From: Gammaproteobacteria bacterium
Lineage (GTDB): Bacteria; Pseudomonadota; Gammaproteobacteria; JAADHQ01
Direction of reading: 5' to 3'
NCBI GenBank assembly: GCA_011052215.1
Contig: DRJK01000083.1
Location: forward strand, 1 to 40,930
Length of the DNA stretch: 40,930 nucleotides
Shown here: one piece after another, positions 534 through 20,112 of the stretch
Position numbering within the stretch: the stretch's first letter is position 1
How the letters are laid out: every line of letters starts with the position of its first letter
Translations under genes and position numbers: made by a program
Notes under the pieces: generated by a model
Seen by the model: only the letters and a program-made list of their open reading frames with translations
The model's database searches: none
What the model was told of the DNA's origin: nothing

Positions 534-3182
534 GTGCTTTTTTCTATGTTCAGTTCAAAACAAAATACTGCAGATACCGGTTGGATGAAGAAGGGTGTAG
601 TCACCCTTTGCATCTTGGTGATATTGCTGGGTGTGTTGGGCATGGTTGGCTGGTACACCCACTCGACACTCCTGATCCAGTTGCAGGCGCATTTAACCCC
701 GATGCAATACAATACGGCCCTGGGTTTTAGTTTGTGTGGCATCGGATTACTGGCCCTGGTCTATCATCGGTCACGACTGGCCATGTTTTGTGGTGGCCTT
801 GTAACCATTTTCTCCCTGTTGACCCTCATGCAGTATCTCTTTGGTGCTGACTTCGGGATCGATCGATTCCTGTTTGAACCTGACATCACCACCAAGACTG
901 CCTTCCCCGGCCGCATGGCACCAAGTACGGCCCTGGCCCACCTCCTGAGCGGGTTATTTTTGCTGATCATGGCTGGAGGGTGTTGGCCGCGCATCTGCAT
1001 TCTGGTGGCCCGGGCGTTTGGTATCAGCGTTCTGGCCCTGGGGGTGGGACACCTGCTGGGCTATGCGATAGGGGGGGAGACGCCCTACGGCTGGTCTCAT
1101 TCCACTTACATGGCGGTCAATACATCGGCTGGATTCGTCCTGCTCGGGATCGGGCACCTGGCCTTTCTATGGCGTTTGTTGATAAAGCAGGAGTCGGGAA
1201 TAAAGGCCCATAACATGGCGCTGGAGAGCGGCATCGGACTGGCCGTCCTGGTTATCATCCTGTGGCAGTCACTGATTGCGCAGGAACGTCTGCAAGCCAT
1301 ACATTTCATAGAGAGTCAGGTCGACAACCTGGTTGTAAAGATCCAGAACAGCATGCGTCAACAAATTCTGGCGATAGGCCGCATGGCCCGGCGTTGGGAG
1401 AATCAAGGTGGTACACCACATGCCCTCTGGAGTGCAGACGCCATACATTATCTTCAACATAACAAAGGGCTGGAGGCTATCATGTGGGTCGATCCTTCAA
1501 CGCATGTGAGCTGGATTGAACCCATGTCGGGTAATGAGACTACCAGGAATCTATATCCTGCCCTTGAATCGCGCAGCACACGGGCACTGGAGACCGCCAG
1601 ATTGAAGCATGCAGTTGTAGCGACTCGCAACATCGAGTTGCACCCGGGCGGCAAGGCCATCATTGTCTATTATCCGCTTTATATTGACGGCCGTTTTGAT
1701 GGGTATATCGGCGGGGTGTTTCGCATCGCAAAACTGTTCAAATCCATCCTGAACAACCTGGCGGGCAAGGATTTTGCAATCGAGGTATTCGATGGCAACG
1801 AAGAAATTTATCGTCGCATCGATGCGGGTGTAGTGTATGAGCCAAACCTGATCCGTACACAATCAATCAGTATCATCAACCTCGACTGGAACCTGCGTCT
1901 TCTGCCCAGCCAAAAACTGCTGGTGGATCAGACATCGTTATTGCCACTGATTGAGCTGATTGTTGGTCTGCTGCTGGCCCTGCTGCTGGCCCTGGTGGTG
2001 GATCGGGCCCACGCGGCGCAGTATCGGGCCAGTGTCCTGGAATTGGAGGTCGCTGAGCGTAAACGTACGCAAGAGGCCCTGGCAACATCAGAATTGTGGC
2101 AACGGAGTATTTTCAATGCCATGGAGGAAGGGTTATTAGTCACCACACCCGAGTGGCTGATGGTCGACATAAACCCGGCCAGTCAAGCCATGCTGGGTTA
2201 CTCGCAAGCGGAAGTTGCAGGCCTGCCGATGGCGGTGATCCATGTGGACCATGACCATGTTGTGGAATTTGTAAGACGTATCAAGGTGGCCTTCGATAAA
2301 GGAGAAATTGCCCGTTTTGAATTCGAACTTAAACGCAAGAACGGTGAAATTTTTCCCACAGAGCATGCCGTTTCCCTGATCCGGGATAATGCCGGCACGG
2401 CCATGGGTATCGTCAGTACCTTGCGTGATGTCACCATACGTAAACAGACCGAGCAGGAATTGCACCACCATCGTGGGCATCTGGAAGATCTGATCGTAGC
2501 GCGGACCGGTGAGTTACATAAATCACGTGAGTCACTACGGGAATTGACTGCTCATCTACAATCGATCAGAGAGGATGAACGGGCCAGTATTGCACGGGAG
2601 GTCCATGATGAACTGGGCCAGGCATTGTTGGCGCTAAGCCTGGATATTCACTGGGTAGACAAGAATCTGTCGGCCCCGGATCTGATCTTGCGTGAAAAAA
2701 TAAAATCGATACTTGATCTGATTGACGCTACCGTTGAATCAGTACAACGAATTACCACACAGTTGCGTCCAGCATTACTGGATGACCTGGGGATGGAGGC
2801 GGCAATACCCTGGTACGCGGGAGAATTTCAGCAGCGTACCGGAATTAAATGTGATACAAAAGTGGTTCTGGACGGAGTCAGTATAGATAATGATAAAAAT
2901 ATTACTATATTCCGTATTCTCCAGGAAGCGCTGACCAATGTCGGGCGTCATTCCGGGGCAAGTCACGTAAATATTTTTTTGGAGGTCAAGGGTGGGCAGT
3001 TTCTCATGACCATCAGGGATGACGGGAAAGGCATCAGTAATGAGCAGTTACACAACAGGCAATCATTTGGATTACAGGGAATGCGAGAGCGTGCCATGGC
3101 CTTCGGCGGAGAAGTACTTATCAATAATAACGCCGGTGGTGGAACAGTGGTAATATTAACTATGCCATTAACCGGCTGTTAG
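534..3182 (+). CDS. Membrane sensor histidine kinase, CHASE-PAS-HisKA_3-HATPase (NarX/UhpB type)
   Basis: This 882-residue kinase should phosphorylate the regulator encoded 11 bases downstream. The N-terminal ~230 residues hold several hydrophobic segments that look like a multi-pass membrane sensory region. Residues ~250-460 resemble an extracytoplasmic CHASE ligand-binding domain, closed by a further membrane segment near 470-490. A PAS domain lies at ~530-640 and a HisKA_3 dimerisation domain follows. Its phospho-accepting histidine is H691, in a REVHDELGQAL motif. A HATPase_c domain ends the protein (DDGKGI and FGLQGMRERA motifs). Translation is drawn from GTG at 534; an ATG at 546 in the same frame is an alternative, and neither has a strong ribosome-binding site. 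The ligand is unknown. Confidence 0.9.
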   Translation: MLFSMFSSKQNTADTGWMKKGVVTLCILVILLGVLGMVGWYTHSTLLIQLQAHLTPMQYNTALGFSLCGIGLLALVYHRSRLAMFCGGLVTIFSLLTLMQYLFGADFGIDRFLFEPDITTKTAFPGRMAPSTALAHLLSGLFLLIMAGGCWPRICILVARAFGISVLALGVGHLLGYAIGGETPYGWSHSTYMAVNTSAGFVLLGIGHLAFLWRLLIKQESGIKAHNMALESGIGLAVLVIILWQSLIAQERLQAIHFIESQVDNLVVKIQNSMRQQILAIGRMARRWENQGGTPHALWSADAIHYLQHNKGLEAIMWVDPSTHVSWIEPMSGNETTRNLYPALESRSTRALETARLKHAVVATRNIELHPGGKAIIVYYPLYIDGRFDGYIGGVFRIAKLFKSILNNLAGKDFAIEVFDGNEEIYRRIDAGVVYEPNLIRTQSISIINLDWNLRLLPSQKLLVDQTSLLPLIELIVGLLLALLLALVVDRAHAAQYRASVLELEVAERKRTQEALATSELWQRSIFNAMEEGLLVTTPEWLMVDINPASQAMLGYSQAEVAGLPMAVIHVDHDHVVEFVRRIKVAFDKGEIARFEFELKRKNGEIFPTEHAVSLIRDNAGTAMGIVSTLRDVTIRKQTEQELHHHRGHLEDLIVARTGELHKSRESLRELTAHLQSIREDERASIAREVHDELGQALLALSLDIHWVDKNLSAPDLILREKIKSILDLIDATVESVQRITTQLRPALLDDLGMEAAIPWYAGEFQQRTGIKCDTKVVLDGVSIDNDKNITIFRILQEALTNVGRHSGASHVNIFLEVKGGQFLMTIRDDGKGISNEQLHNRQSFGLQGMRERAMAFGGEVLINNNAGGGTVVILTMPLTGC

Positions 3183-3193
3183 AGGATAAAGCA

Positions 3194-3826
3194 GTGATAA
3201 AAATATTGGTCGTCGATGATCATGCAATTGTTCGTGCCGGTCTGAAACAGCTACTTGCCGACACCGATGATATGCTTGTAGGTGGAGAGGCGGGTTCCGG
3301 AAACGAAGCGATAAAAAAGGTGCGTGAAGAAAGTTGGGATGTTGTGTTGCTGGATATGACCATGCCGGACAGGAGCGGTCTGGATGTTCTAAAGCAGATT
3401 AAAAAAGAGCAACCAGGTCTTCCGGTGCTTGTACTGAGTATGCACCCGGAAGAGCAGTATGCAATCCGGGTACTGAAAACAGGTGCATCAGGCTATCTGA
3501 ACAAACGTTGTGTACTGGATCAGCTGATAAGTGTAATACGTAAAGTAGCGAAGGGCGGGAGTTATATCAGTGAGTCCGTTGCAGAGAAACTTGCATTTGG
3601 CAGTCATCTTGATGCAGAGAAATCACCGCATGAATTATTAAGTGACCGGGAGTTTCAGGTATTTCATCTGCTGGCCTCGGGCATGACAGTTTCAGGTATT
3701 GCCGGGAAGCTTTCCCTGAGTGCGAAGACAATAAGCACCCATCGTAGCAATCTTTTAAAGAAAATGAATATGAGGAATAATGCCGATTTGATGCGTTATG
3801 CCGCAGAGAATGGTCTTGTAAGCTAG
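3194..3826 (+). CDS. NarL/FixJ-family response regulator (first copy)
   Basis: This 210-residue regulator has an N-terminal receiver domain with acidic pair D8-D9, phospho-acceptor D54, S82 and K104. A LuxR/GerE-type helix-turn-helix follows at ~145-205 (LSDREFQVFHLLASGMT, then SAKTISTHRSNLLKKM). It starts with GTG at 3194 behind AGAGGA, 11 bases after the kinase gene, so the two are almost certainly one operon and a cognate pair. It is clearly paralogous to the regulator at 6605-7234: the two share long identical or near-identical stretches in the receiver (DDHAIVR, WDVVLLD, SGLDV, QYAIR, IRKVA, GG.YI). The target promoters are not evident. Confidence 0.93.
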   Translation: MIKILVVDDHAIVRAGLKQLLADTDDMLVGGEAGSGNEAIKKVREESWDVVLLDMTMPDRSGLDVLKQIKKEQPGLPVLVLSMHPEEQYAIRVLKTGASGYLNKRCVLDQLISVIRKVAKGGSYISESVAEKLAFGSHLDAEKSPHELLSDREFQVFHLLASGMTVSGIAGKLSLSAKTISTHRSNLLKKMNMRNNADLMRYAAENGLVS

Positions 3827-3883
3827 TGCTTTATCAACCTGTAACACTGTTCCGTTAACTTTATGAAGCACATGATAATGTGA

Positions 3884-3999
3884 GGACATGAAACCGGCAA
3901 GCCTGATCAAGACCGTCTGCCGCACGGATGATGCGGCAGCCGAGCCGCAATGGAGGGCATATTTTGCGTGTCTTGATCCGGCTTGCCGGTTTCATGTCC
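3884..3999. repeat. Long nested inverted repeat
   Basis: The arms 3884-3913 and 3970-3999 are 30 bases each and complementary except at one position. The 56-base centre contains a perfect 8-base stem, CTGCCGCA (3917-3924) with TGCGGCAG (3932-3939), around a 7-base loop. There is no T-run after it, so it does not look like a simple terminator. The nearly perfect arms suggest a recent or selected structure, such as a non-autonomous repeat element or a structured RNA. No target-site duplication was seen at its borders. Confidence 0.75.
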
Positions 4000-4112
4000 G
4001 GATTGCGGGTTAGCCCGAAACGCACTTGCCGCTTACATTTTAACTGTATTCGTCATGGGTTAACGGGACAACAGTGAACCGGTATATATCAATACCACCC
4101 CATGTCTGCTTA

Positions 4113-4149
4113 ATTAAAATCAGGTGAACCACCGCCTGAGGCGGTGAGA
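4113..4149. repeat. REP-like palindrome, copy 1
   Basis: An ATTAAAA-containing left flank leads into AACCACCGCC-TGA-GGCGGTGAGA. The perfect stem is CACCGCC (4130-4136) with GGCGGTG (4140-4146). The same flank and palindrome recur in the same orientation at 7266-7302. A short palindrome with conserved flanks and an asymmetric GTGAG end is typical of REP sequences. Confidence 0.6.
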
Positions 4150-4185
4150 CACAAAGAGGCACTGCCGTTAAGGGGTGCAAAGAGA

Positions 4186-4274
4186 TAGCCGCAAATACTC
4201 GCAAATATTGATAATGATTATTTGCGTTCATACGTAGCTAAACAAGGTTTTAAGAAATATAGTATTTGCGGCTA
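4186..4274. repeat. Nested inverted repeat built on GCAAATA units
   Basis: The outer arms TAGCCGCAAATAC (4186-4198) and GTATTTGCGGCTA (4262-4274) are perfect 13-base complements. An inner pair, CGCAAATA (4200-4207) and TATTTGCG (4219-4226), is nested inside and shares the GCAAATA core. The element lies 36 bases after REP-like copy 1. It may be one compound repeat of a non-coding family; no copy was found elsewhere in the window. Confidence 0.6.
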
Positions 4275-4617
4275 ATAAGATTTAATGGTTCTTACTATTC
4301 GCTTTCATTTTCGGCCGAATGACGGGTTTGAATAGTATAAAAAATACCTGATGGCCCCTTCCAGAGTCCTTCATTGCAGCCGCCGCTTTGCAGGTGGTGT
4401 AGGATGTTATTCCCTTTTAATTCCGCATTCTTCTTAGTAAAAAATAGTGGTTTATCCTATGGTAGACACCTGTTTTATTAGGTGAAATAAATCCCAATAT
4501 TTTAATGCATTAATTTAATGGAAATTCAGATTACAGGATATGGGGTAGCAGAATGGGGCTAATGTCTTGCGTTCATTATGTGAATGGTAATAATCAATTC
4601 GGTAATGGACTGCCAGA

Positions 4618-5364
4618 ATGGCCATAATCTGTTGCCAGGAATTAATCAGTTCACTCACCAGGGCAGAGACCGTGGATGAGATCCACTTAACCTGCTCAGA
4701 GCTATGTGAACAGTTAGGGTTTGACCGGTTTCTTTATGGCTCGATGATCCCGACCACATTTAATAAGCCACACTTTATTTACATCAGTAATTACCCCGCC
4801 GAGTGGAGAGCCCGTTACGAATCCGAAAATTACATGGGCATTGATCCTGTCGTTACCCATTGTGCCTCGCATATAACGCCCGTTACCTGGGATTACATAA
4901 CGCAGATGGGTCAACAAGATGAAAACACCCGGCAGTTTATGTATGAGGCGAAGGGGTTTGGGCTGAACAGCGGCATCAGTATTCCTGTGCATACTCCGCA
5001 GGGTGAGTTTGCCATATTTAATCTGTCTTCAATTCAAAATAATAGCTATACAAATAAACATATACTTCAGGTGATGCCTCATGCCCAGCTTTTCACGGCA
5101 TACGTTCATGAGGCCGTGCGCAGGGTATTTGCGAACGATATTCTGCCATTGGGGCAGGTCAACCTTACCCGGCGTGAGAAAGAATGCCTGCTATGGGTTG
5201 CAGACGGAAAGACTGCGTGGGAGACCTCACAGATTCTGGGCGTGTCTGAACGTACGATTGTTTTTCATATGCAAAACTCGGCGGAAAAACTCAATGTTGT
5301 TAATCGGGCGCAGACTGTAGCCCGTGCAGTTTCACTCGGTCTCATTACCCCCCAGCTGGCATGA
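4618..5364 (+). CDS. LuxR-family acyl-homoserine-lactone receptor and transcriptional activator
   Basis: This is a 248-residue quorum-sensing regulator. The N-terminal autoinducer-binding domain carries the family's invariant ligand-pocket residues in correct spacing: W63, Y67, D76, P77, W91 and G119, matching TraR W57, Y61, D70, P71, W85 and G113 with a constant offset of six. The C-terminal GerE helix-turn-helix spans ~183-245 and has the conserved E187, L191 and G197. Intact pocket residues argue that it binds a real AHL rather than being a ligand-free solo. The synthase gene follows 171 bases downstream on the same strand, with a lux box between them. The start is the ATG at 4618. Confidence 0.95.
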   Translation: MAIICCQELISSLTRAETVDEIHLTCSELCEQLGFDRFLYGSMIPTTFNKPHFIYISNYPAEWRARYESENYMGIDPVVTHCASHITPVTWDYITQMGQQDENTRQFMYEAKGFGLNSGISIPVHTPQGEFAIFNLSSIQNNSYTNKHILQVMPHAQLFTAYVHEAVRRVFANDILPLGQVNLTRREKECLLWVADGKTAWETSQILGVSERTIVFHMQNSAEKLNVVNRAQTVARAVSLGLITPQLA

Positions 5365-5453
5365 TTGCAATGGTCTGCCATTCCCCGGGCAAGACAACTT
5401 ACAATTCCATCATCCAAAAACATTTAGCATGATAATCATTTAGTTATTGCATT

Positions 5454-5500
5454 ACCTGTCATTTCTTACAGTACTGTAGGAAAGTCACTTGTTGTTAACT
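5454..5500 (+). promoter_or_regulatory. Predicted lux box and promoter of the luxI operon
   Basis: ACCTGTCATTTCTTACAGTA (5454-5473) keeps the lux-box half-sites ACCTGT and TACAG with their normal spacing. A -10-like TTAACT lies at 5495-5500, which places the start near 5507 and centres the box at about -43, the classic class II activator position overlapping -35. A perfect palindrome, TACAGTACTGTA, spans 5467-5478. The predicted transcript has a ~30-base leader before the ATG at 5536. Confidence 0.65.
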
Positions 5501-5535
5501 TCCCCTGTCTTTCAAAGTCATGGGGAGCAGGAACA

Positions 5536-6162
5536 ATGAGTGAAATTCTGATTACAAACGCAAATGAACAGTCCACTGATACGGAAATGCTGAACGGAAT
5601 GTTTTGCTTGCGATACCGGGTATTCCATGAACGTCTGGGTTGGCAAGTGAATTGTGAAAATGGCATGGAGAAGGATGATTTTGATTGCCTTGACCCCACT
5701 TATCTGGTGGCACGAAATGAGGCGCGGGAGGTTGAGGGCTGTTGGCGCATTCTTCCGACAACAGGGGCTTATATGCTGAAGGATATCTTTCCCCAGTTAT
5801 TATGTGGCGAACAGGCCCCTGAAGACGAAAATATCCTGGAGCTCAGCCGGTTTGCAGTGGCACCGGTCAATGCCCGTGAAAATGTTCAGGCCGCAGTCAA
5901 TACCGTAACCCTGGAAATGATTCGCAGCGTTTTTGATTTTGCAGAACGCCATGGCATTAAACAATATGTCACCGTCACCAGTGTTGCCATGGAGCGGCTA
6001 ATGAAGCGGATAGGTATCCCGATGGACCGGTTTGGTAATAAAAAAGCCCAACGTGTTGGCAAGGTTTTATCCGTTGCGTGCAAGGTGGATATTAACGAAC
6101 AGTTTCGTCAAGCCGTGTATCCGGCTCGGCAGCCCGGCCGGCCACGCCAGACAGCAGCATGA
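5536..6162 (+). CDS. LuxI-family acyl-homoserine-lactone synthase
   Basis: This 208-residue enzyme makes an AHL signal from S-adenosylmethionine and an acyl-ACP. The family's conserved residues are visible at R26, F30, W36, D47, D50, R71, E102, S104 and R105 (motifs LRYRVF, LGWQV, EKDDFD, ELSRF). Length is normal for LuxI proteins. The start is the ATG at 5536 with a GGAGCAGGA-type ribosome-binding site. The stop codon overlaps the ATG of the next gene (ATGA at 6159-6162), so the signal synthase is translationally coupled to two downstream genes. Acyl-chain specificity cannot be read from sequence alone. With the predicted lux box upstream, positive autoinduction by the neighbouring LuxR protein is likely. 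Confidence 0.96.
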   Translation: MSEILITNANEQSTDTEMLNGMFCLRYRVFHERLGWQVNCENGMEKDDFDCLDPTYLVARNEAREVEGCWRILPTTGAYMLKDIFPQLLCGEQAPEDENILELSRFAVAPVNARENVQAAVNTVTLEMIRSVFDFAERHGIKQYVTVTSVAMERLMKRIGIPMDRFGNKKAQRVGKVLSVACKVDINEQFRQAVYPARQPGRPRQTAA

Positions 6163-6605
6163 AAATATTATTTACGGGGGCCGCACATCGGTTTGCAGAG
6201 CTTCGAAAGGCGCTGTGTCAAGGTGAAGATATTTTGATCAGTCATAACGAGAATGCCGGTAAAGTGCCAACGGAATCGCCTGGTGATATAGAGGAATTTG
6301 ACTGGGTCATATTGGATAACCGGGAAAACGATCTGGACAATTCTGATATAGCGGGGCTGATAAATTCTTCGGCCCCTCGATCGGGTGCCGGCGCGGGGGC
6401 TGTTTTTGATGACAGTTGGGCTTCGTCTCATCATTCCAGTCCTCAATGTGGCCTGGAGTGGACCGAGAAGGGGATGCTCCGATTGCGCTGCGGGTTTCAC
6501 AAGATACAGCAGGAATTACAGTCCGGGAAATCTCAAAATATCGCCAACAGTTCCAGGGGATCCGTTTTTGAATACAATGCACCATCAAAGAAGAATCGAT
6601 TCTGA
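6159..6605 (+). CDS. Small unknown protein in the luxI operon, possibly a degenerate receiver
   Basis: I do not recognise this 148-residue protein. It is translationally coupled at both ends: its ATG overlaps the luxI stop and its TGA overlaps the ATG of the response regulator. Its first ~60 residues follow the layout of the next gene's receiver: MKIL at the N terminus, then FDWVILDN where receivers have WDVVLLD. The acidic pair is replaced by GAA, and no conserved T/S or lysine can be placed. The C-terminal half is low in hydrophobic residues and rich in Ser, Gly, Asn and Gln. It has no signal peptide or membrane segment. Coupling argues strongly that it is translated; a role in AHL or phosphorelay control is inference. 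Confidence 0.7.
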   Translation: MKILFTGAAHRFAELRKALCQGEDILISHNENAGKVPTESPGDIEEFDWVILDNRENDLDNSDIAGLINSSAPRSGAGAGAVFDDSWASSHHSSPQCGLEWTEKGMLRLRCGFHKIQQELQSGKSQNIANSSRGSVFEYNAPSKKNRF

Positions 6606-7234
6606 TGAAAATATTAATTGTAGATGATCATGCAATTGTCAGGGAGGGTTTGAAGTATACGCTTAAGGGATGCACGGATTTTGACCTGATTGGCGAGGCG
6701 GAATCCGGAGTAGAAGCCATTAACAAGATGCGGAAGATAAAATGGGATGTGGTGCTGCTGGACATATCCATGCCGGGCAAGAGTGGGCTGGATGTGATGA
6801 AGCAAATGAAAAAAGAACAACCCGAGCTTCAAATACTGATCCTGAGTGTCTACCCGGAGGATCAGTATGCCATACGGATGCTCCGGGCGGGTGCGGCAGG
6901 TTACCTGTCCAAGGGATGCGATCCGGATGAATTGGTACAGGCAATCCGGAAGGTCGCAAATGGAGGCAAGTATATAAATAATGATGTTGCGGACAGTCTG
7001 CTATATACCCTGGATCCGGTAAGAAAGAAGGCATTGCATCAGGCCCTGAGCGATCGTGAATACCAGGTATTTCAGCTCATGGCTGAGGGCAAGCAGGTAT
7101 CCGAAATTGCCCATGAATTGTCGATAAGCGACAAGACGGCAAGTAACCATAGACAGAGCATCATGAAAAAGATGGATATGAAGAAAAACGCAGAAATCGT
7201 CCGCTATGCGATCAAATGTGGAATAGTCCGGTAA
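6605..7234 (+). CDS. NarL/FixJ-family response regulator (second copy, quorum-sensing operon)
   Basis: This 209-residue regulator is built like the one at 3194-3826: a receiver with D7-D8, phospho-acceptor D53 and K103, then a GerE helix-turn-helix at ~143-205 (LSDREYQVFQLMAEGK, then SDKTASNHRQSIMKKM). It is the third gene of the predicted luxI operon, so its level should rise with cell density. No kinase gene adjoins it. The closest candidate partner is the CHASE/PAS kinase at 534-3182, given the strong similarity of the two receivers. The pair looks like a duplication in which one copy came under quorum control. Confidence 0.93.
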   Translation: MKILIVDDHAIVREGLKYTLKGCTDFDLIGEAESGVEAINKMRKIKWDVVLLDISMPGKSGLDVMKQMKKEQPELQILILSVYPEDQYAIRMLRAGAAGYLSKGCDPDELVQAIRKVANGGKYINNDVADSLLYTLDPVRKKALHQALSDREYQVFQLMAEGKQVSEIAHELSISDKTASNHRQSIMKKMDMKKNAEIVRYAIKCGIVR

Positions 7235-7974
7235 TCAGGCCATCAGCAATAATTTGTGGTCACTGATTAAAACCGGATAAACCACCGCCCCGGGCGGTGA
7301 GATTCAGAAAAAACACATCACCCGACATGCAGGCACTGAAATCAGCCAGATACAGGTGCTATTCATGTGGCCAATGGCCAGTAAGGATATGTCCTACCAC
7401 CGCTTAGTTATTTCGACTAAACCATTTTAGTAAAAAAGCCTAATGGAAAACATTACTAATCCCTATCCAGTATCCGGCCTGCGGGACGAAACCTAGTGTG
7501 TAAGAAAACATAAGTCTGATTCGAATTATGACCGCATGACTGATGGGGTCATATGAATACGCGAACAACTGACATTATCAGAATCCGTATATCGATATTT
7601 TTGGTAGGCCATTAAGGAAGTGAACTGTGAAGGTAAACAGAAATACCGGTAAATATATTAATTTGCATTTCACTCGAATGAAAATCAGTGTCGATAGAAG
7701 GCAATCAGTAAAAGACAGGTTTGGCGCCTTATTGGAGCAATTGTTCAGTAACATTGTCTGGTTTGGGTAGGTTATTTGGTTATTAACGGGGAAAATTAAT
7801 ACAGTGGAAACCTGGAAGTTCAATGGCGGGAGAAAGCTAATAATAACAGATAACCCGCGGGCCATTATTTAATAACAATGGCAAGGTAGATGTACCCAAG
7901 GGAATGACAGCGAGCAGAAATGCAGACAGAAAATAACAAAGGCAGTATGAAATAAATAAAACAGGGATAAGGTG
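7235..7974. other. 740-base intergenic region
   Basis: The only clear element is REP-like copy 2 at 7266-7302. A 47-codon frame from GTG 7627 to TAG 7770 has a GGAAG ribosome-binding-like site but no recognisable product, and I do not annotate it as a gene. The rest is AT-rich and should contain the promoter of the chemotaxis cluster; I could not identify it. Confidence 0.5.
7266..7302. repeat. REP-like palindrome, copy 2
   Basis: AACCACCGCC-CCG-GGCGGTGAGA with stem CACCGCC (7283-7289) and GGCGGTG (7293-7299), preceded by the same ATTAAAA flank as copy 1 at 4113-4149. The two copies are direct repeats and differ mainly in the loop and part of the left flank. Copy 2 begins 31 bases after the stop of the second response regulator. 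Confidence 0.6.
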
Positions 7975-9162
7975 ATGACGAACTTCATGCAATACAAGCG
8001 ATACTGGGTTGTGCCAACATTACTGGGCCTGGCAGGGGCGGGCGCCGTCCTGTCTTTTACTCCATTAAGTGGCGTTACTGTCATCATGGCAAGCACCATA
8101 CTGATTACAGGCATGGTGTGTGCCATGTGGTTGTCCCGATCAGTAGCGTCATTGCACCGGCATGTGTCGTCATCCGGATCAGATACAGGAGCGGCTGAAC
8201 CGCATGGTACATTTGATGAGCTCTATATCTCTTCACTCCCTATCTGGAAAAGGCAGATCAGTACGGCCGGTGATCAGACAAAGGAGGCCATCAGCGATTT
8301 GGCGACCCGGTTTTCAAGCCTGGCTCTGGATCTGGAACAAGCTGTGGACGCTTCACGTGATTCCACAGAGAAAGTGCAAATCAGTGAAGGAAACGATGGC
8401 AGCATCGTCGATTTATTCACGGCAACCGAGCAGGATCTGGGTTCCGTTATCCAGGCACTGACCGGTGCCCAGCAAGCAAAACAAAATATGGTCAAGGAGA
8501 TTCGTGACTTCAGCAATTACATGGGTGAGCTGGTCACCATGGCCGAGGAAGTGGCCGTGATTGCACGTCAGACTAACCTGTTATCCCTGAATGCCGCCAT
8601 TGAGGCGGCACGGGCCGGGGAGCATGGCAGGGGGTTTGCCGTGGTGGCGGGTGAGGTTCGCGAGCTTTCGACGCTATCTGCAAACACCGGAAAAAGGATA
8701 TCCGAGATGGTGATTAATATCAATACGTCAATGTCTGCCGTGGTAGCGCTGACCGAGCAAACCTCACAGCAGGACAAGGAATCAGTGGCGAATTCGGAAA
8801 CCACCATACGCGATGTTATGTCGCGTTTCCAGGGTGTGACCTCGTCGCTGGTTGATTCATCATCCAGCATGCGTCAAACAGGGACGGTTATCCAGAACGA
8901 GATCTCGGACATGCTGGTGTCACTACAATTTCAGGATCGTGTCTCCCAGATCCTTGAGCATGTAACCGGACATATGTCGATGTTACACGATCGTATCCAG
9001 GCATACGCAGAGCAGGACGCCGGGCAGGAAGAGGCAGAGTTGTTCGATGTGAAATCCTGGCTGGAACAAATGGAGACCTCCTATACCACCGAGGAGCAAA
9101 GGTTGAATCACAACGGGGCCAATGGACAGTCAACGGCACAATCACAAGTTGCATTTTTTTAG
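7975..9162 (+). CDS. Methyl-accepting chemotaxis protein without a periplasmic domain
   Basis: This is a 395-residue transducer. Two hydrophobic segments (~9-27 and ~30-50) follow each other with almost no loop, so the protein is anchored but has no extracytoplasmic sensor. The cytoplasmic signalling hairpin tip is clear at ~200-225 ([20 protein letters not shown], then [16 protein letters not shown]). The C-terminal part (~315-345) contains the [13 protein letters not shown] motif common in this MCP subgroup. The ATG at 7975 is preferred over the GTG at 7972 because it is spaced properly from AGGGATAAGG. It is the first gene of the chemotaxis cluster, and a CheY gene follows 9 bases later. 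It probably senses an intracellular or membrane-state cue. Confidence 0.9.
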
Positions 9163-9171
9163 GAAAGAATT

Positions 9172-9540
9172 ATGAGTAAAACTATTCTAATTGTAGATGA
9201 TTCGGCTTCCATCCGGCAGGTTGTGGGTCTTGCACTCAAACGTGTGGGTTACGATGTAATTGAGGCCGGTGACGGGGTGGATGCACTGAGTAAACTTAAT
9301 GGTGTCAAGATTCATCTCATTATCAGTGATGTCAATATGCCGAATATGGATGGCATTACCTTCGTCAAGGAGGTCAAAAAACTGCCTAACTACAAGTTCA
9401 CACCCGTTTGCATGCTTACCACGGAATCGGAACATAGCAAGATGCAGGAGGGTAAGGTGGCCGGCGCCAAGGCGTGGGTGGTCAAACCTTTTCAGCCACC
9501 ACAATTGCTGGATGCCGTATCCAAACTGGTTTTACCCTGA
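9172..9540 (+). CDS. cheY: CheY-like single-domain response regulator
   Basis: This 122-residue stand-alone receiver has all phosphorylation-site residues: D9-D10, phospho-acceptor D53, T83 and K105 (in WVVKPF). It has no output domain, as expected for CheY, which carries phosphate from CheA to a motor or other target. The start is the ATG at 9172 with AGGAAAG upstream. It sits between the first MCP and a STAS protein, ahead of cheA. Whether the target is a flagellar motor, a type IV pilus or another process cannot be decided, because no motor gene is in the window. Confidence 0.92.
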   Translation: MSKTILIVDDSASIRQVVGLALKRVGYDVIEAGDGVDALSKLNGVKIHLIISDVNMPNMDGITFVKEVKKLPNYKFTPVCMLTTESEHSKMQEGKVAGAKAWVVKPFQPPQLLDAVSKLVLP

Positions 9541-9582
9541 CAGTGTTGCCGGTATACGGGAACAAACAAAGGAAATAACAAA

Positions 9583-9918
9583 ATGTCATTAAAAGCACGA
9601 ACAAGCAAGGGAAAGTGCAAGGCGAAAATAGAGGGGGACATGACCATCTATACGGCTGGCGAGATAAAAGACAAGTTGTTGCAAAAACTGGATGGTTGCG
9701 AGGCAATGGAACTGGACCTGTCGCAGGTTACGGAGTTGGACACGTCGGGTTTTCAGGTGCTGGCCTTGCTTAAACGTGAAGCAGAGCGACGGGAGAAAGA
9801 GCTGCAACTGAAAGGCCACGGACATATCGTGCAGGACGTGTTCGCACTGTTTCATGTTACTGACCAGCTTGTTGCAGCCTATGCGGAGCCTGAACAGACT
9901 TCACCCGGCCGGGTGTAA
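9583..9918 (+). CDS. STAS-domain protein (anti-sigma-factor antagonist-like)
   Basis: This 111-residue protein is a single STAS domain. The phosphorylatable loop is visible as ELDTSGFQVL (D53-T54-S55-G56), the position phosphorylated in SpoIIAA-type proteins. It lies 42 bases after cheY and 13 bases before the chosen cheA start, inside the chemotaxis operon. STAS proteins occur in several non-canonical chemosensory clusters. No anti-sigma kinase of the SpoIIAB type is nearby, so its partner is unknown; binding to a chemosensory protein is inference. Confidence 0.88.
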   Translation: MSLKARTSKGKCKAKIEGDMTIYTAGEIKDKLLQKLDGCEAMELDLSQVTELDTSGFQVLALLKREAERREKELQLKGHGHIVQDVFALFHVTDQLVAAYAEPEQTSPGRV

Positions 9919-9931
9919 AGGGGATATAGCG

Positions 9932-12136
9932 ATGGATGAGAGTGTACAGATATTTGAAACCGAGGCGCACGAGCTGCTGGATGACATGGAACAGTCACTG
10001 CTGGAGCTGGAGAACAATCCGGACGATCTCGATCATATCAATTCCGTGTTCCGTGCCGCCCACACTATCAAGGGTTCATCCGGGCTGTTTGGCTATGAAT
10101 GCGTGGTCACCTTCACCCATCTTGTCGAAAGCCTGCTGGATCGGGTCCGTGCCGGGGAACAGGAGATTGTCCCCGAGTTGTTGACGTTGTTGTTGAGTTG
10201 CTGCGATGTCATGGCGCAACTGGTAGATGCCGCCATCGCTGATCAGGATGGCGGGGATGACGAAGTACAACAAAAAACCCTTACCTTGTCTCAACAATTA
10301 AATACCTATCTGGGCATCACCCCGGCTGATACAGATCAGACAACGGTGACAACCGCCGAACCCGGGATGAAGAAGTTTGAACCCACCGATATCGTTCTGG
10401 GGGATAACTGGCATATTTCTATCCACTTCGGGCACGACGTGTTGCGAAATGGCATGGACCCGCTGTCATTTATCCGTTATCTGGGGACACTGGGCGACAT
10501 CGTTAACCTCGTCACACTGTGGGATGAAATGCCGGCTGTCGATGACATGGACACGGAAAGCTGCTATCTCGGCTTTGAAATAGAGATCACCGGCAATGTG
10601 GACAAGCAGGCAATCGAAGACGTGTTCCAGTTTGTCATGGATGACTGCCGTCTGTATATCCTGCCGCCGTTGAGCAATCTGTCGCTTTACGAAAACCTGA
10701 TCGAGCAACTGGTCAACGACGGGTCACTGCTTCTGGGTGATATTCTGGTACAAAGTGGTGCCGCCACACAGCGTGAAATCGATGAGGCCTTGCAACATCA
10801 GGAAGGTCAGCAAGCCATCGGTCAGTCCGAACCTTTAGGCAAAATATTGCGCCAGGAAGGGGTGGTACACCCGGAGGTTATCGAGGTCGCGGCAAAAAAA
10901 CAGCAGCAGGTACGGGAAAAACAGAATCTGGCCGGTAAATCCATTCGTGTCAGCGCAGACAAGCTGGAGCAGTTGATCGATCTGGTCGGAGAGCTGGTCA
11001 TTTCCAGTGCCAATACAAAATTACTGGGTAACCGTACCCGGGACACGGCACTGATTGAATCACTGGAGAACATGTCCCGCCTGGTGGAAGACATTCGTGA
11101 CACCGGGCTGGGTCTGCGCATGGTACCCATCGGTGAAACCTTTAATCGTTTCCGGCGTGTGGTGCGGGATTTGAGTCAGACAATGCACAAGGATATCGAA
11201 CTGGAGCTGAGTGGCGGCGACAAGGAACTGGACAAGACCGTGGTCGAAAAGATTGGCGACCCCCTCATGCATCTGGTGCGCAATTCCATCGATCACGGCA
11301 TCGAACCGGCCGAGCAGCGTTTGCAGCAGGGCAAACCCGGCAAGGGCAAATTACGACTCAATGCCTACCACGACTCCGGCACGATCGTTATCGAGGTGGA
11401 AGACGATGGCGGGGGTTTGTCACGCGAAAAAATACTTGCCAAGGCAGAACAGCAAGGCTTGATCAACCCCAGTCAGACACTGACCGACCAGGAGGTGTAC
11501 CGGCTGATTTTTGAACCGGGTTTTTCCACTGCCGAACAGGTCACCGATGTTTCAGGGCGGGGTGTCGGCATGGATGTGGTACGACGTAACATCGAGTCCT
11601 TGCGTGGCCAGGTGGATGTGGAAAGCTGGCCCGGCAAGGGCAGCCGTTTCAGCATTCGTCTGCCATTAACACTGGCAATCATCGACGGCTTTCTGGTCAA
11701 GGTGGGTGATTCCTCGTATGTCATTCCACTGGATATGGTGGAAGAGTGTGTCGAACTGTCTGGCATGGCCGGCGGCGAGCAGGCCAATGATTACATCAAT
11801 CTGCGTGGTGAGGTTTTGCCCTTTATTCGACTGGGTGAGCTGTTCCAGGAAACGCAAAACCAGGTCAAGCGCGAGAATATCGTCGTGACCCAGTTCGCCG
11901 GGCAAAAGGCCGGGCTGGTGGTGGATGAGTTATTGGGTGAATACCAGACGGTGATCAAACCCCTGAGCAGAATTTTTGCCCATCTGGATGGTGTCAGCGG
12001 GGCGACCATCCTGGGTAGTGGCGAAGTGGCCATGATTATCAATGTCCCGGAACTGGTACAGCAGGTTGCCATGAATGGCGGCTGGCGGGCAAGGGGCGGG
12101 GGCGGCCTGGAGATGCCGTCCATGCAGGCCCATTAA
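9932..12136 (+). CDS. cheA: Chemotaxis histidine kinase CheA
   Basis: This 734-residue kinase phosphorylates CheY and CheB in response to MCP signals. Domains in order: HPt with phospho-site H44 (AAHTIKGSSG); a CheY-binding-like middle region (~150-255, with LRNGMDPLSFIRYLG); a linker with an LGDILVQSGAATQREID-like segment; the dimerisation domain; a HATPase domain (HLVRNSIDHGIE, EDDGGGL, GRGVGMDVVRRN); and a C-terminal CheW-like domain. The frame is open upstream to 9854, but that would overlap the STAS gene. The ATG at 9932, behind AAAGGGGATATAGCG, begins with MDESVQIFETEAHELLDD as in homologues. Confidence 0.95.
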   Translation: MDESVQIFETEAHELLDDMEQSLLELENNPDDLDHINSVFRAAHTIKGSSGLFGYECVVTFTHLVESLLDRVRAGEQEIVPELLTLLLSCCDVMAQLVDAAIADQDGGDDEVQQKTLTLSQQLNTYLGITPADTDQTTVTTAEPGMKKFEPTDIVLGDNWHISIHFGHDVLRNGMDPLSFIRYLGTLGDIVNLVTLWDEMPAVDDMDTESCYLGFEIEITGNVDKQAIEDVFQFVMDDCRLYILPPLSNLSLYENLIEQLVNDGSLLLGDILVQSGAATQREIDEALQHQEGQQAIGQSEPLGKILRQEGVVHPEVIEVAAKKQQQVREKQNLAGKSIRVSADKLEQLIDLVGELVISSANTKLLGNRTRDTALIESLENMSRLVEDIRDTGLGLRMVPIGETFNRFRRVVRDLSQTMHKDIELELSGGDKELDKTVVEKIGDPLMHLVRNSIDHGIEPAEQRLQQGKPGKGKLRLNAYHDSGTIVIEVEDDGGGLSREKILAKAEQQGLINPSQTLTDQEVYRLIFEPGFSTAEQVTDVSGRGVGMDVVRRNIESLRGQVDVESWPGKGSRFSIRLPLTLAIIDGFLVKVGDSSYVIPLDMVEECVELSGMAGGEQANDYINLRGEVLPFIRLGELFQETQNQVKRENIVVTQFAGQKAGLVVDELLGEYQTVIKPLSRIFAHLDGVSGATILGSGEVAMIINVPELVQQVAMNGGWRARGGGGLEMPSMQAH

Positions 12137-12229
12137 ATATAGAGACACGAACGACATGACCTTGGGGTCTGCCGGCGTTAAACATTTATCGGAGGGCCGT
12201 AGAGGCCTGGAAAAAGGAGAAACAGCACC

Positions 12230-15200
12230 ATGAAAACGAACATGCCAGTCACCAACAACGAGGTTCAGTTGGCAGCCGGACAACTCATTGTTTCCAAGAC
12301 GGACCTGAAGGGTATTATCACTTATGTCAATTCGGATTTTGTGGATATCAGTGGTTTTTCCGAACAGGAACTGATCGGCAAGAATCACAATATGATCCGT
12401 CACCCGGACATGCCACCAGCGGCCTTTCAGGATCTGTGGGATACGGTCAGGGCCGGCAGGCCATGGATCGGCGTGGTCAAGAATCGTTGCAAGAATGGTG
12501 ATTTCTATTGGGTCAATGCCAATGTCACACCGATCTGGAAAGATGGTCGCGTGTCTGAATACATGTCGGTGCGCAGTCTGCCCAGTCGTGACCAGATCAC
12601 CGCAGCAGAGGCCCTGTACCAGCAGATCAATGCGGGCAAGGCCCCCAAGGCAGGCTTGTTGGCACGGCTTAATGTTTTTCGCAAACTCAAGATGGGCTAC
12701 AAACTGGGTTTGGCAGGGTCAGTATTTTTGCTGATGACAGCGATCGTGTCAGTGAATCTGGTGATGATAGAGGATAATGAAATTGATCTTGCCAGGCAGG
12801 AAATCAGCGGGGTGAAATACCTCGAACCGATGAGAAAAATCCTCCAGCACCTGCCCCGGCATCGGGGAATGCTTAACGCCTATCTCAATGGCAACAGCAG
12901 CCTTAAGTCTCAAATTCTCCAGATACGCCGTGAGGTCGATATGGACCTGCAGGCCATAACAGCCGCAGACGGAGAAGCGGGTGAATTACTGGACACCAGT
13001 GCGAAGTTGCAGGTTATCAAGGCAAAGTGGCAATCCCTGAAGGGCCAGGCCTTTGACCTGACGGCCAAGGAGAGTTTCAAGCGTCACACGGCGTTACTGG
13101 ATGAGATCATCAGTCTGGCCGCCCACGTGGGCGACAGCTCCAATCTGGTTCTGGATCCCGAGCTGGACACATATTACCTCATGGATCTGCTGGTAAACCG
13201 GATACCCGTTCTCACCGAGAAGATGGGGCAAATCCGCGGGCTGGGGGCCGGTATCATCAGTGCGGGCCGGTTTGTCAATGGGCAAGAGGAACGCCTGTCC
13301 GAGCTGCACGCGATTGCCCAGGTTACTTCGCAAGGGCTGGCCCATGCACTGGAGCGTGCCTTCAATACCAATCCCGACATCAAGGCACGTCTCGGCACAC
13401 AGGCACAGGCAGTGCGTCAGTCGCTGGACAGCTTCGCGTTACAGGCGGGTGTCCTTCTGAAGGGCCGTATCACCGGGCTGAAATCGAATGACTATTTCGA
13501 GGCGGGTACCCGGGCCATCGATAATACCTTTACCCTTTATGATGCCACAGCACCGCTGCTGACAGAGTTATTGCAGGCCCGGGTGGACCGGCTGTCCAAT
13601 GATCGTTTGTTACTTATATCACTGGTTGCAGCGGGTGTGCTGCTGGCCCTGATCACCGGTTTTGCCGTGGCACGCAATATCTTGCGCGCATTAAAACAGA
13701 CCATTGGCTATTTCGACGAGATCTCTGGCGGCAAGTATGACGGCGCCATCGAGATCGACCGTCATGACGAGATCGGCGATGTAATGCGTGCCCTGAAGTC
13801 CATGCAGATCAAGCTGGGTTTCGAGGTTAACGACGCCAGGCAACGTGCAAACAGTTCCCTGCGCATCAAGGTGGCGCTGGATAATGTCAACACCAACGTC
13901 ATGGTGGCGGACACCAACCTCAACATCATCTATATGAACCAGGCGGTGGTGCAAATGTTTCGTAATGCACAAGATGATATTCGCACGGAGTTACCCGACT
14001 TCGATGCCGATGATTTACAAGGCCGCTGCATTGATCAGTTCCACAAAAACCCCGCTCACCAGCGCGGCATGCTGGAGCGCCTGTCTGCTACCTATGAGGG
14101 CAATATCAGTATCGGTGGTCGCAGCCTGTCGGTGATTGCCAACCCGGTACTGGACGAGGATGGTGAACGACTGGGTGCCGTGGTGGAATGGAAGGACCGG
14201 ACCGAAGAGGTAGCGGTGGAAGGCGAGATCGCCGATATCGTTACTTCGGCAGGCATGGGTGATTTTTCCCAGCGTATCGATCTGGCTGGCAAGGAAGACT
14301 TTTTTGAACGCCTGGCCAAGGGTATTAATACGGTGATGGAGACCACCGAGGTCAGCCTCAATAATGTGGTACAGGTAATTCGCACACTTGCCCAGGGTGA
14401 TCTGACACAGACCATTGATGGTAATTACCATGGTATCTTCGCCGAACTGAAGGATGATGTTAACAGCACCATTTACAAATTATCCGAGGTCATTTCTGAT
14501 GTTAACAGTAATGCCAATGGTATCTCCAGCGCCTCGGAACAGGTCAGATCCACTGCGGACACATTGAGCCAGGGTGCAAGTGAGCAGGCCTCCAGTGTGG
14601 AAGAGACCTCGGCCTCGGTTGAGGAGATGAGTGCCTCCATCGACCAGAACAGTGAAAATGCCAAGGTCACCGACGGCATTGCCAATGAGGCAGCAAAATC
14701 GGCCAAGGAAGGCGGCCAGGCGGTGGCGGAGACCGTGGAAGCCATGAAGAGCATTGCCGAGAAAATCAGTGTTATCGAGGGCATTGCCTACCAGACCAAT
14801 ATGCTGGCCCTGAATGCAGCCATTGAGGCGGCACGTGCCGGCGAACATGGCAAGGGTTTTGCGGTGGTTGCGGCCGAGGTGCGCAAGCTGGCAGAACGCA
14901 GCCAGGTAGCGGCGCAGGAGATCGGTGACCGGGCCAGTAGCAGCGTCAAGATTGCCGAGAAGGCAGGTACGTTACTGGAAGAAATGGTGCCCAATATCAC
15001 CAAGACCGCCGATCTGGTACAGGAAATCACCGCATCCTCTGAAGAACAGTCGGCTGGTGCCGGGCAGATTACGATCGCCATGAACCAGCTTGACCAGGTT
15101 ACCCAGCAGAGCGCTGCGGGTTCCGAAGAACTGGCGGCCACGGCCACGCAGTTACAGAGCCAGGCCGAATATTTACAAGGGCTGATGGGTTTTTTCACCC

Positions 15201-15373
15201 TGGATGAAAAAAAGACCAGCGTGAAAGATAACCGCAAAACCGGAAGCAAGGGAACCGTGGTCACCGGGCGTGGTAACGACGATGCCCGCCCCTCCATATG
15301 CGACGTCGAGGCCAAATCTGAGCCTGCCGACACGGATGAAGCCGATTTCGAAAGCTTTGCGCAGGGAGGGTAG
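12230..15373 (+). CDS. PAS-containing methyl-accepting chemotaxis protein (Aer-like N terminus)
   Basis: This is a 1047-residue transducer. An Aer-type PAS domain at ~18-125 has the typical [19 protein letters not shown] and [18 protein letters not shown] features, suggesting a bound flavin and redox or energy sensing. A membrane segment at ~155-180, a long ~275-residue extracytoplasmic helical region and a second membrane segment at ~459-481 follow. Then come HAMP, a second PAS-like domain (~545-660), another HAMP-like stretch and the MCP signalling domain. Its tip is at ~850-880 ([18 protein letters not shown]). It starts with ATG 12230 behind AAAGGAGA. The 93 bases after cheA hold no gene. 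Confidence 0.92.
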
Positions 15374-15379
15374 GTGGTT

Positions 15380-15952
15380 ATGGCACAAGTCGCCGAGCAA
15401 GACTATAGCGAAGTGAGGGCCGATGCCGACCAGAACCAGTTTCTGACCTTCTCGCTGGGTGGTGAGGTATATGCCATCGAGATACTGAGCACCCGCGAGA
15501 TTATTGGCTATGGCAATCTGACAACCGTGCCGATGATGCCCGCCTTTATCCGTGGTGTCATTAATCTGCGCGGCAGTGTGGTACCGGTGGTGGATCTGGC
15601 GGCTCGTTTCGGCGATGAATCTGCAAAAATCACCAAGCGCAGCAGTATCATCATTATTGAGATTATGGATGGCGATACCACCCTTAATATCGGTGTGGTA
15701 GTCGATAGTGTAAACGAGGTGCTGGAGATTCTACCTGCCGATATTGAACCACCACCCAGCTTCGGCGCGAGGATACGTACCGACTTTATCAAGGGCATGG
15801 GCAAGGTAGATGGCAAATTTCTGGTATTACTGGATGTAGCCAATGTACTGTCTGTAGAGGAGTTATCTCTACTCGATGAGGCACAGCAAAAACCCCGGCT
15901 TGAGACATCGGTAGAGGATGGTTTGTCGATACCACCTACGGAAGGTAATTGA
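15380..15952 (+). CDS. cheW: CheW coupling protein
   Basis: This 190-residue adaptor links MCPs to CheA. The CheW fold is recognisable at ~20-165, for instance LTFSLGGEVYAIEILSTREI, MPAFIRGVINLRGSVVPVVD and GVVVDSVNEVLEI. It has a ~25-residue extension at the C terminus. The frame begins at GTG 15374, directly after the MCP stop, but the ATG at 15380 lies at a normal distance from GGGAGGG and is preferred. It overlaps nothing and is followed after a single base by the likely cheR start. Confidence 0.93.
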   Translation: MAQVAEQDYSEVRADADQNQFLTFSLGGEVYAIEILSTREIIGYGNLTTVPMMPAFIRGVINLRGSVVPVVDLAARFGDESAKITKRSSIIIIEIMDGDTTLNIGVVVDSVNEVLEILPADIEPPPSFGARIRTDFIKGMGKVDGKFLVLLDVANVLSVEELSLLDEAQQKPRLETSVEDGLSIPPTEGN

Positions 15953-15953
15953 G

Positions 15954-16832
15954 TTGGTTCGCTCCCTGCTAAAGCAGAACATGCCGTCTGCGGCTAAAGT
16001 GGTTGAGCCCGGTGACAAGGCCGGACTGGTCTTTACCATCTCCAATGACGAGTTTTTTCGCATACGCGACTACCTGCAAGATAAAATTGGTATTCAATTG
16101 AGTCTGGCCAAAAAGCAGATGGTGGTTTCAAGATTGGCCAAGCGACTCCTGCACTACAACCTGTCCTCCTACGGAGAGTACTTTCAAAAGTCAATCGACG
16201 GAACCCTGGCGAATGAGCTACAGACCATGCTGGATCTGCTGACGACCAACGAAACCTATTTGTTTCGTGAACCCGCTCATTTTGATTTCCTGCGAGACAG
16301 TATCCTCGGCAACTGGAAACGGGGACGCCAGTTCCGCGCCTGGAGTGCCGCCTGTTCCAGTGGTGAAGAGCCATACAGCCTGGCCATGGTTACAGCAGAC
16401 CGGCTGGGTGAGTCGCCGTGGGAAATAGTGGCTTCCGATGTCAGCAGCCGGATATTGACATCTGCACGTAAGGGACAATATTCAAGGGAACGAACCCAGT
16501 ATATTCCCAAGGACTATCTGGAAAAATACTGTCTCAGGGGGGTACGTGCCCAGCACGGAACCCTGCTGATAGACAAGCGGTTACGGCGACGGGTGCAGTT
16601 CATGCTTGTTAATCTGAATACGCCATTGCCTGATGCTACCGGACAGTTTGACGTTATCTTTCTGCGCAATGTGCTGATCTATTTCGATGCACAGACCCGG
16701 GCTGAAATAGTCAAACGCCTGTTGTCGCGGCTGAGGTCAGGCGGCCATTTTTTTGTCAGTCATACCGAGACCATAAGTGGTATTTCCAACCAGCTGGAGC
16801 AGGCGGCACCCAGTGTGTATCGGAAGAAATGA
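15954..16832 (+). CDS. cheR: CheR protein-glutamate methyltransferase
   Basis: This enzyme uses S-adenosylmethionine to methylate glutamates on MCPs during adaptation. It shows an N-terminal helical CheR_N domain and then the catalytic domain with LLTTNETYLFREPAHFDFL, AACSSGEEPYSLAM (SAM-binding loop) and FDVIFLRNVLIYF. The start is uncertain. TTG at 15954 has a well-placed GGAAGG and gives 292 residues, whereas the ATG at 15981 gives 283 residues but has a poor ribosome-binding site. An ATG at 15918 would overlap cheW. The gene is followed by a 152-base gap containing heptanucleotide repeats. Confidence 0.92.
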   Translation: MVRSLLKQNMPSAAKVVEPGDKAGLVFTISNDEFFRIRDYLQDKIGIQLSLAKKQMVVSRLAKRLLHYNLSSYGEYFQKSIDGTLANELQTMLDLLTTNETYLFREPAHFDFLRDSILGNWKRGRQFRAWSAACSSGEEPYSLAMVTADRLGESPWEIVASDVSSRILTSARKGQYSRERTQYIPKDYLEKYCLRGVRAQHGTLLIDKRLRRRVQFMLVNLNTPLPDATGQFDVIFLRNVLIYFDAQTRAEIVKRLLSRLRSGGHFFVSHTETISGISNQLEQAAPSVYRKK

Positions 16833-16835
16833 AAA

Positions 16836-16955
16836 GGGACTAGGGACGAGGGACGAGGTAAAAGGTAAAAGGTAAAAGGTACGAGGGATTGATGTTGTAA
16901 TCTTTTCCTAGTTCCTAGTTCCTAGTTCCTAGTTCCTAGTTCCTAGTCCCTAGTT
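16836..16955. repeat. Inverted pair of heptanucleotide repeat arrays
   Basis: Left array, 16836-16884: seven units, GGGACTA, GGGACGA twice, GGTAAAA three times, GGTACGA. Right array, 16907-16955: seven units of CCTAGTT, with one CCTAGTC variant. The arrays are roughly complementary and share a perfect 9-base pair, ACTAGGGAC (16839-16847) with GTCCCTAGT (16946-16954), so a hairpin can form. Both have an exact period of 7 and are 49 bases long. The element occupies most of the cheR-cheB gap and could cause slipped-strand length variation or act as a structure in the mRNA. Confidence 0.85.
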
Positions 16956-16984
16956 TATGAACAACAGTGAGTTGAGTTATAAAA

Positions 16985-18106: not shown

Positions 18107-18124
18107 CCAGAGAGGTGATTGCCG

Positions 18125-19792: not shown

Positions 19793-20112
19793 CATTATTT
19801 TCATGAACATCATGATGCCTGACTGCGATCTGCGAAGCACAGTTATAACCGAACAGTACATACACTGTGCCATGCCCTGCACCACCAGGCCCCTGAAAAA
19901 AACAGGGGTCGTCTGCGTATGGACAGATTAAAACAGATTTTCGAATTATTGCGGTATGGTTGTGCCGGCTTGCCGGCGTCAGTATCGGTCATCGAACCGG
20001 TATCAACAGAAATATTCCATGGCGCTGATCTCTTGCTTCGGCCTGGTGCCAGGTTCATGTATAGAGCCTGTCGACCTGTGCCGGATGCATTTTACGTGAA
20101 GGAGCCATAGAC
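19793..20112. other. 320-base gap with a hairpin and a 63-codon frame of doubtful value
   Basis: A hairpin CCCCTG (19890-19895) with CAGGGG (19903-19908) around seven A residues could act as a weak terminator, although no T-run follows. A frame at 19919-20110 encodes no recognisable product. CCGGCTTGCCGG at 19965-19976 is a palindrome also present in the long inverted repeat at 3978-3989. AAGGAG just before 20113 is the ribosome-binding site of the next gene. Confidence 0.5.

Follow-up and report, generated by a model that had tools for sequence, protein, structure and literature searches.

The window considered here is a 40,930-nucleotide (nt) stretch of DNA (contig DRJK01000083.1 of assembly GCA_011052215.1, positions 1 to 40,930 of the forward strand) from a gammaproteobacterium represented by a 2.6-Mb metagenome-assembled genome (MAG) in 183 contigs. 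Six genes near the start of the window, all on the + strand, encode a sensor kinase (HK1), a response regulator (RR1), a LuxR-type receptor for acyl-homoserine lactone (AHL), a LuxI-type AHL synthase, a small protein referred to here as ORFX and a second response regulator (RR2). The gene order, the common strand and the approximate coordinates had been given in an initial annotation made from the sequence alone, and gene positions and Pfam matches confirm them. That annotation listed ORFX but missed its conservation and the fact that nothing else at the locus is as unusual; as judged from its sequence relatives, ORFX belongs to a new small-protein family coupled to luxI. The features of the locus are as follows:

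534 to 3182, + strand: HK1, a CHASE-PAS-HisKA_3-HATPase_c sensor kinase (Pfam); the GTG start codon is uncertain
3194 to 3826, + strand: RR1, a NarL/FixJ-type regulator with Response_reg and GerE domains (Pfam), the presumed partner of HK1
3884 to 3999, + strand: a long inverted repeat between RR1 and luxR, likely a unit separator
4618 to 5364, + strand: LuxR-type AHL receptor, with Autoind_bind (PF03472, 2.6e-38) and GerE (PF00196, 3.3e-16) domains
5454 to 5473, + strand: lux box ACCTGTCATTTCTTACAGTA, matching the boxes upstream of luxI in ORFX-carrying relatives
5536 to 6162, + strand: LuxI-type AHL synthase, with an Autoind_synth domain (PF00765, 2e-41)
6159 to 6605, + strand: ORFX, 148 amino acids (aa), a probable divergent receiver domain (about residues 1-90) followed by an extension with a Cys motif, a hairpin, a helix and FEY
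6605 to 7234, + strand: RR2, a NarL/FixJ-type regulator with Response_reg and GerE domains (Pfam), without a kinase of its own and the putative output gene of the operon

By every feature tested, the window system is a LuxI/LuxR system. It shares the Autoind_synth, Autoind_bind and GerE domains with systems of the TraI/AfeI-like synthase branch and has the usual distance between lux box and luxI, as the box is canonical and lies 63-82 nt upstream of luxI. A motif like ACCTGTMANWTCTKACAGYW occurs about 75-85 nt upstream of luxI in the relatives that carry ORFX, and the window box occupies the corresponding position. A 20-bp dyad, TTCTTACAGTACTGTAGGAA, was first taken as the lux box and then rejected; it overlaps the canonical box by half. 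LuxI is single-copy in the window genome, and residues R26, F30, W36, D47, D50, R71, E102 and R105 are invariant in the LuxI alignment. The usual view of a LuxI/LuxR system is that of a circuit of two genes that governs a regulon, whereas luxI in the window appears to be coupled to a receiver-like protein and a signalling output gene in one operon. The initial annotation had the last three genes overlapping by ATGA, which is true of the luxI/ORFX junction (a 4-nt overlap) but not of the ORFX/RR2 junction, where TGATG gives an overlap of 1 nt. From the lux box, the overlaps and the gene families we infer that luxI, ORFX and RR2 are transcribed as a single operon. Since RR2 is the last gene behind the canonical lux box and a promoter scan lists no promoter-like site on the + strand inside luxI-ORFX, RR2 is very probably a density-controlled output of the luxI operon, this being the most economical reading, and the earlier proposal that RR2 is made in a density-dependent manner is upheld at that strength.

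ORFX has no match in Pfam or NCBIfam. In the first LuxI relatives inspected, an open reading frame (ORF) of similar size starts at -4 from the luxI stop codon and ends in a motif like FEYxAPxK. A LuxI scan of genome contigs gave 80 named loci, and pooling these with the earlier loci yielded 57 credible ORFX loci, each at a LuxI locus, with ORFX starting at -4 from the luxI stop in 46 of the 53 measured. The carriers include Muproteobacteria, Thiogranum, Thiohalobacter, Arhodomonas, MAGs labelled Halorhodospira and Natronospiraceae, three MAGs labelled Desulfuromonadales, and nearly all loci of Nitrosospira, Nitrosovibrio, Nitrotoga and Gallionellaceae. ORFX is absent from the LuxI loci of Vibrio, Shewanella, Rheinheimera, Reinekea and Enterovibrio. 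On the LuxI tree, the presence of ORFX takes 8 changes as compared with 24 when the labels are shuffled. A search of 369 class genomes with the ORFX profile returned 8 full-length matches, all at luxI or, in one genome (G082), at a luxI remnant; the remaining matches were mainly to the N-terminal half and ordinary receiver-like. ORFX is under purifying selection, with ratios of nonsynonymous to synonymous substitution rates (dN/dS) of 0.04-0.43 in 11 of 12 pairs, the ratio not being computable in the other. Because dozens of genomes carry homologues, with dN/dS below 1, in the corresponding position behind luxI, the idea that ORFX is a chance ORF was ruled out. Literature searches in open-licence papers found no description of ORFX, which may nevertheless have been mentioned earlier.

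Several loci show variations on this arrangement. G082, a one-contig genome, has a decayed quorum-sensing locus (L153:1384-1833) with a truncated luxR and a remnant of luxI, about 60 aa long, that continues in frame into ORFX; the downstream EAL gene is still open. In G242 (L054:8946-9977) a second LuxI domain and ORFX share one open frame; the LuxI catalytic residues are present, and a gene for a sigma-54 activator is next. Three MAGs (L081, L085 and L086) have a second, divergent LuxR-type gene on the same strand after luxI, in the place of ORFX. The ORFX-like candidates after luxI in G271 and G338 are unconfirmed by the profile, and an ORF at L131 was dropped from the ORFX set.

Profile and structure comparisons indicate that the N-terminal half of ORFX is a divergent receiver domain without the metal-binding acidic pair or a complete phosphorylation site. 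The matches of a 36-member ORFX profile to solved structures are all to receivers (best 3e-6, positions 1-92), and hhalign gives a probability of about 97 for ORFX against receivers. AlphaFold models of ORFX (predicted local distance difference test, pLDDT, 70 and 76) have a receiver-like half of beta-alpha type, after which come a beta-hairpin and a helix. VIA-align of the model with a pLDDT of 76 gave BaeR, TadZ, CikA and others with Z up to 9.0 over about 80 residues; for BaeR, 79 residues aligned with a root-mean-square deviation of 2.3. At position 7, where the acidic pair would begin, no sequence has an acid and 28 of 36 have G; 26 of the 36 retain the acid (D/E) of beta3. The C-terminal half, when compared alone with solved structures, found no relative (best E 0.26). 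A Cys...G...Cys motif is present in 51 of 60 ORFX sequences, and most end in FEY. ORFX thus resembles the pseudo-receiver domains of CikA and TadZ/CpaE in having a receiver fold without the full phosphorylation site, but differs from them in possessing its own C-terminal half and in being tied to luxI.

Two other luxI-linked genes invite comparison with ORFX. Proteins of the RsaM/AbaM family (PF16245) are likewise about 140-170 aa, luxI-linked and proteobacterial, and in both cases the likeliest role is to regulate AHL synthesis. RsaM is an independent transcription unit, located mostly upstream between luxI and luxR, and has an antiparallel-sheet fold (PMC10710839). ORFX, in contrast, lies downstream of luxI, overlaps it and has a predicted receiver-like fold; no member of the ORFX set matches PF16245 (E<=1), and membership in that family was rejected. 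The afeI-orf3-afeR locus of Acidithiobacillus also has a third, uncharacterised conserved gene, but orf3 is upstream of afeI (PMC3759942, PMC7984328), and its position sets it apart from ORFX.

The gene that follows ORFX varies. It is a cyclic di-GMP (c-di-GMP) gene in 31 of the 57 loci and of unclear type in 8, and in 14 loci, nearly all Nitrosospira-type, there is no gene on the same strand. Single cases are a histidine kinase (L074), the sigma-54 activator of G242, the NarL-type regulator of the window and a probable frameshifted c-di-GMP gene. Among the 23 non-redundant downstream genes, EAL domains occur in 19, GGDEF domains in 17 and receiver domains in 7; several EAL proteins of Thiogranum and its relatives lack the catalytic motifs. 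The genome search for luxI followed by a small ORF and a NarL-type regulator that the initial annotation had suggested finds luxI-ORFX to be recurrent, with a NarL-type regulator in third place in the window only. Because the output gene varies and 14 loci have none on the same strand, the constant partner of ORFX is LuxI.

It is most likely, given this pattern, that ORFX acts on LuxI or on the switch, since LuxI is the partner with which it overlaps, to which it is fused in one case and with which it is kept in nitrifiers that have no output gene. ORFX would tune or gate AHL synthesis, through LuxI or the switch, rather than act on an output protein that differs from locus to locus. Alternatively, ORFX could inhibit or adapt the downstream output protein, much as YfiR acts on the diguanylate cyclase YfiN. 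This alternative seems unlikely: it fits the position of ORFX immediately before a GGDEF/EAL gene in about 31 loci and the appearance of YfiR among weak Foldseek matches of the ORFX model, but it must contend with the variable type of output, with the 14 loci that keep ORFX beside luxI with no output gene and with the YfiR family profile comparison, in which the probability is below 1%. ORFX as a homologue of YfiR/DUF4154 was rejected, there being no PF13689 match and an hhalign probability of 0.3%. If ORFX does act on LuxI, a broader proposal can be put forward tentatively, and we regard it as doubtful as a whole. In a large part of the AHL quorum-sensing systems, ORFX might be the third core component, a pseudo-receiver co-translated with LuxI that binds the synthase, as in the G242 fusion, and sets AHL output according to another signal, with the last gene of the operon relaying density into c-di-GMP or two-component signalling since LuxR has one target. 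Candidates for the signal read by ORFX are a phosphodonor, the redox state, sensed via the conserved Cys pair, or a ligand.

The number of lux boxes per genome bears on how density information would leave the operon. A scan of 15 genomes, compared without phylogenetic correction, found no match to a reversed-pattern control at <=1 mismatch in any of them. In the window genome the box at 5454-5473 is the only match at <=1 mismatch; at 2 mismatches there are 7 sites, as compared with 7 in the control. Seven further gammaproteobacterial genomes with ORFX (G083, G310, G203, G242, G372, G373 and G374) have exactly one site at <=1 mismatch, located upstream of luxI, as do G271 and G338, where the ORF behind luxI is divergent or short. 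Most of the gammaproteobacteria tested thus differ from the usual LuxI/LuxR system also in having a single lux box per genome, and in several of them the LuxR regulon seems to have shrunk to its own operon, with a signalling protein at the end. G369 and G370 (loci L098 and L105), two genomes of Nitrosospira type that lack an output gene, have 12 and 8 matches at <=1 mismatch, some of which are one palindromic site counted on both strands, and no luxR near luxI. These matches are candidates for a nitrifier quorum regulon.

We consider it probable, though by no means assured, that the stretch from 4618 to 7234 is a self-contained quorum-sensing relay consisting of one lux box and a luxI-ORFX-RR2 operon, in which density is passed on by the last gene. 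LuxR with AHL would bind the single lux box and turn on luxI-ORFX-RR2 as a translationally coupled operon, upon which AHL, ORFX and RR2 would rise together. The density signal would then be handed on by the operon's last gene and not through a large LuxR regulon, that gene being a NarL-type regulator in the window, a GGDEF/EAL protein in most relatives and, in one locus each, a histidine kinase and a sigma-54 activator. Several points weigh against the relay. A NarL-type regulator as output was seen at no locus other than that of the window, the window genome is a MAG of 183 contigs, a weak promoter for RR2 could lie inside ORFX, and the frequent placement of ORFX directly before c-di-GMP genes is also what an action on the output protein would predict. 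In addition, a second lux-box site is present in G140 and in G371, a Nitrotoga genome, G309 has no match because its own box deviates and escapes the scan, and a consensus derived from luxI promoters would miss divergent LuxR sites.

RR1 and RR2 have the REC plus GerE architecture of UvrY/GacA/NarL-type regulators, but RR2 differs from such regulators in lying inside the luxI operon with no neighbouring kinase. RR2 keeps the DD, phospho-Asp, Ser and Lys residues, and since its own kinase is absent its action should require a phosphodonor in trans. RR2 would thus relay density only if phosphorylated, with HK1 upstream or HK3, the kinase of a paralogue locus, as candidate donors. RR1, in which DD, phospho-Asp and Lys are present, is 56% identical to RR2, in agreement with the initial description of the two as paralogues. 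The further description of a duplicated system holds only insofar as the two are paralogous, because a third paralogue, RR3 (G000:C172:6868-7482), is equally close at 54% identity, making at least a trio. RR3 adjoins its own Cache-HisKA_3 kinase, HK3. The closest relatives of RR2 in the 369 class genomes are 44-61% identical to it, and nearly all of those that could be checked adjoin a HisKA_3 kinase. In the tree RR2 clusters (support 0.71) with regulators from two further genomes (L207 and L213) rather than joining RR1 directly, which does not point to a recent tandem duplication of RR1 and RR2.

The initial annotation had proposed that HK1 phosphorylates both regulators, with RR2 made only at high cell density, such that the output requires both the stimulus and density (an AND gate). 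Phosphotransfer from HK1 to RR2 is possible, as the clade of RR2 adjoins such kinases while RR2 has none, and the likeness of RR1 and RR2, both with the DD, Asp and Lys residues, and the lux box preceding the RR2 operon fit this proposal. The alpha1 helices differ (RAGLKQLLAD in RR1, REGLKYTLKG in RR2), which says nothing either way on pairing of HK1 with RR2. Other observations lower the standing of the AND gate to that of a possibility with the odds somewhat against it. HK3 is an equal candidate donor because RR3, which has this kinase, almost equals RR1 in its similarity to RR2, and the tree, with its weak support, places RR2 nearer the L207 and L213 regulators than RR1.

The AND gate also depends on HK1 belonging to the same circuit as RR2, and on this point the earlier proposal fares poorly. 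HK1 and RR1 are 11 nt apart, and 791 nt without a gene separate RR1 from luxR. The inverted repeat in this gap has 30-nt arms that are 97% alike with 56 nt between them and folds at -76 kcal/mol (z -9.6) with no T-run; it could represent a mobile palindromic element or act as a barrier to transcription. HK1 and RR2 are not adjacent, as 3.4 kb comprising RR1, the large hairpin, luxR, luxI and ORFX lie between them. None of the other ORFX loci examined has an HK1-like HisKA_3 kinase near luxI, and luxI, ORFX and an output gene occur in relatives without the kinase, which largely corresponds to an arrangement that the initial annotation had itself named as contrary to its proposal. Related regulators lie at a distance in two other ORFX loci, and in two Enterovibrio loci without ORFX a kinase-regulator pair adjoins luxI on the opposite strand. 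Because of the gap with its stable hairpin and the lack of an HK1-like kinase near luxI in relatives, HK1-RR1 is best read as a separate unit and a mere neighbour of the quorum-sensing operon.

If HK1-RR1 is only a neighbour, one might ask whether RR2 is also there by chance, the locus being a LuxI/LuxR pair beside an unrelated two-component system with RR2 a stray copy without a special role. LuxI is missing from three other genomes of the genus, as is any close relative of RR1 or RR2 (best 35% identity), and no other locus with luxI, ORFX and a NarL-type regulator was found, both of which are in keeping with such an explanation. It is nonetheless quite improbable, as ORFX and RR2 overlap by 1 nt on the same strand and a signalling gene fills the same slot in most relatives.

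An experimental parallel for a LuxR protein feeding a second signalling layer is provided by Nitrospira, where a reporter assay showed activation by NspR1 of both nspI and a GGDEF/EAL gene through one lux box that they share (PMC8553950). A c-di-GMP enzyme gene is thus under the luxI lux box there as well, but it is divergent from luxI (PMC8553950). Many proteobacteria from the environment have this unannotated conserved LuxI partner, which is found at nearly all of the sampled LuxI loci of nitrifiers; this suggests that ORFX is a third, overlooked part of a common system of bacterial communication. If this is true, and if the LuxR regulon of several gammaproteobacteria is indeed confined to one operon ending in a signalling gene, it would explain how quorum sensing can control the cell through one binding site and would supply nitrifier quorum sensing with a missing component, and cultured Nitrosospira and Arhodomonas would be open to a direct test.

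Beyond RR2, a chemosensory cluster on the same strand (7972-24477) encodes a methyl-accepting chemotaxis protein (MCP), CheY, a STAS protein, CheA, a PAS-MCP, CheW, CheR, CheB and hybrid kinases, and is a possible target of RR2. The initial statement that only one kinase is present applies to the HisKA_3 type at the locus, but not to the wider region, where this cluster contains a hybrid HisKA kinase. Further on, a gene on the - strand (24539-25798) encodes a DUF3391-HD domain protein, likely of a c-di-GMP phosphodiesterase type. Two 37-nt repeats resembling repetitive extragenic palindromes, at 4113-4149 and 7266-7302, are 81% identical with the core ACCACCGCC...GGCGGTGAGA and lie on either side of luxR-luxI-ORFX-RR2, as if bounding a unit.

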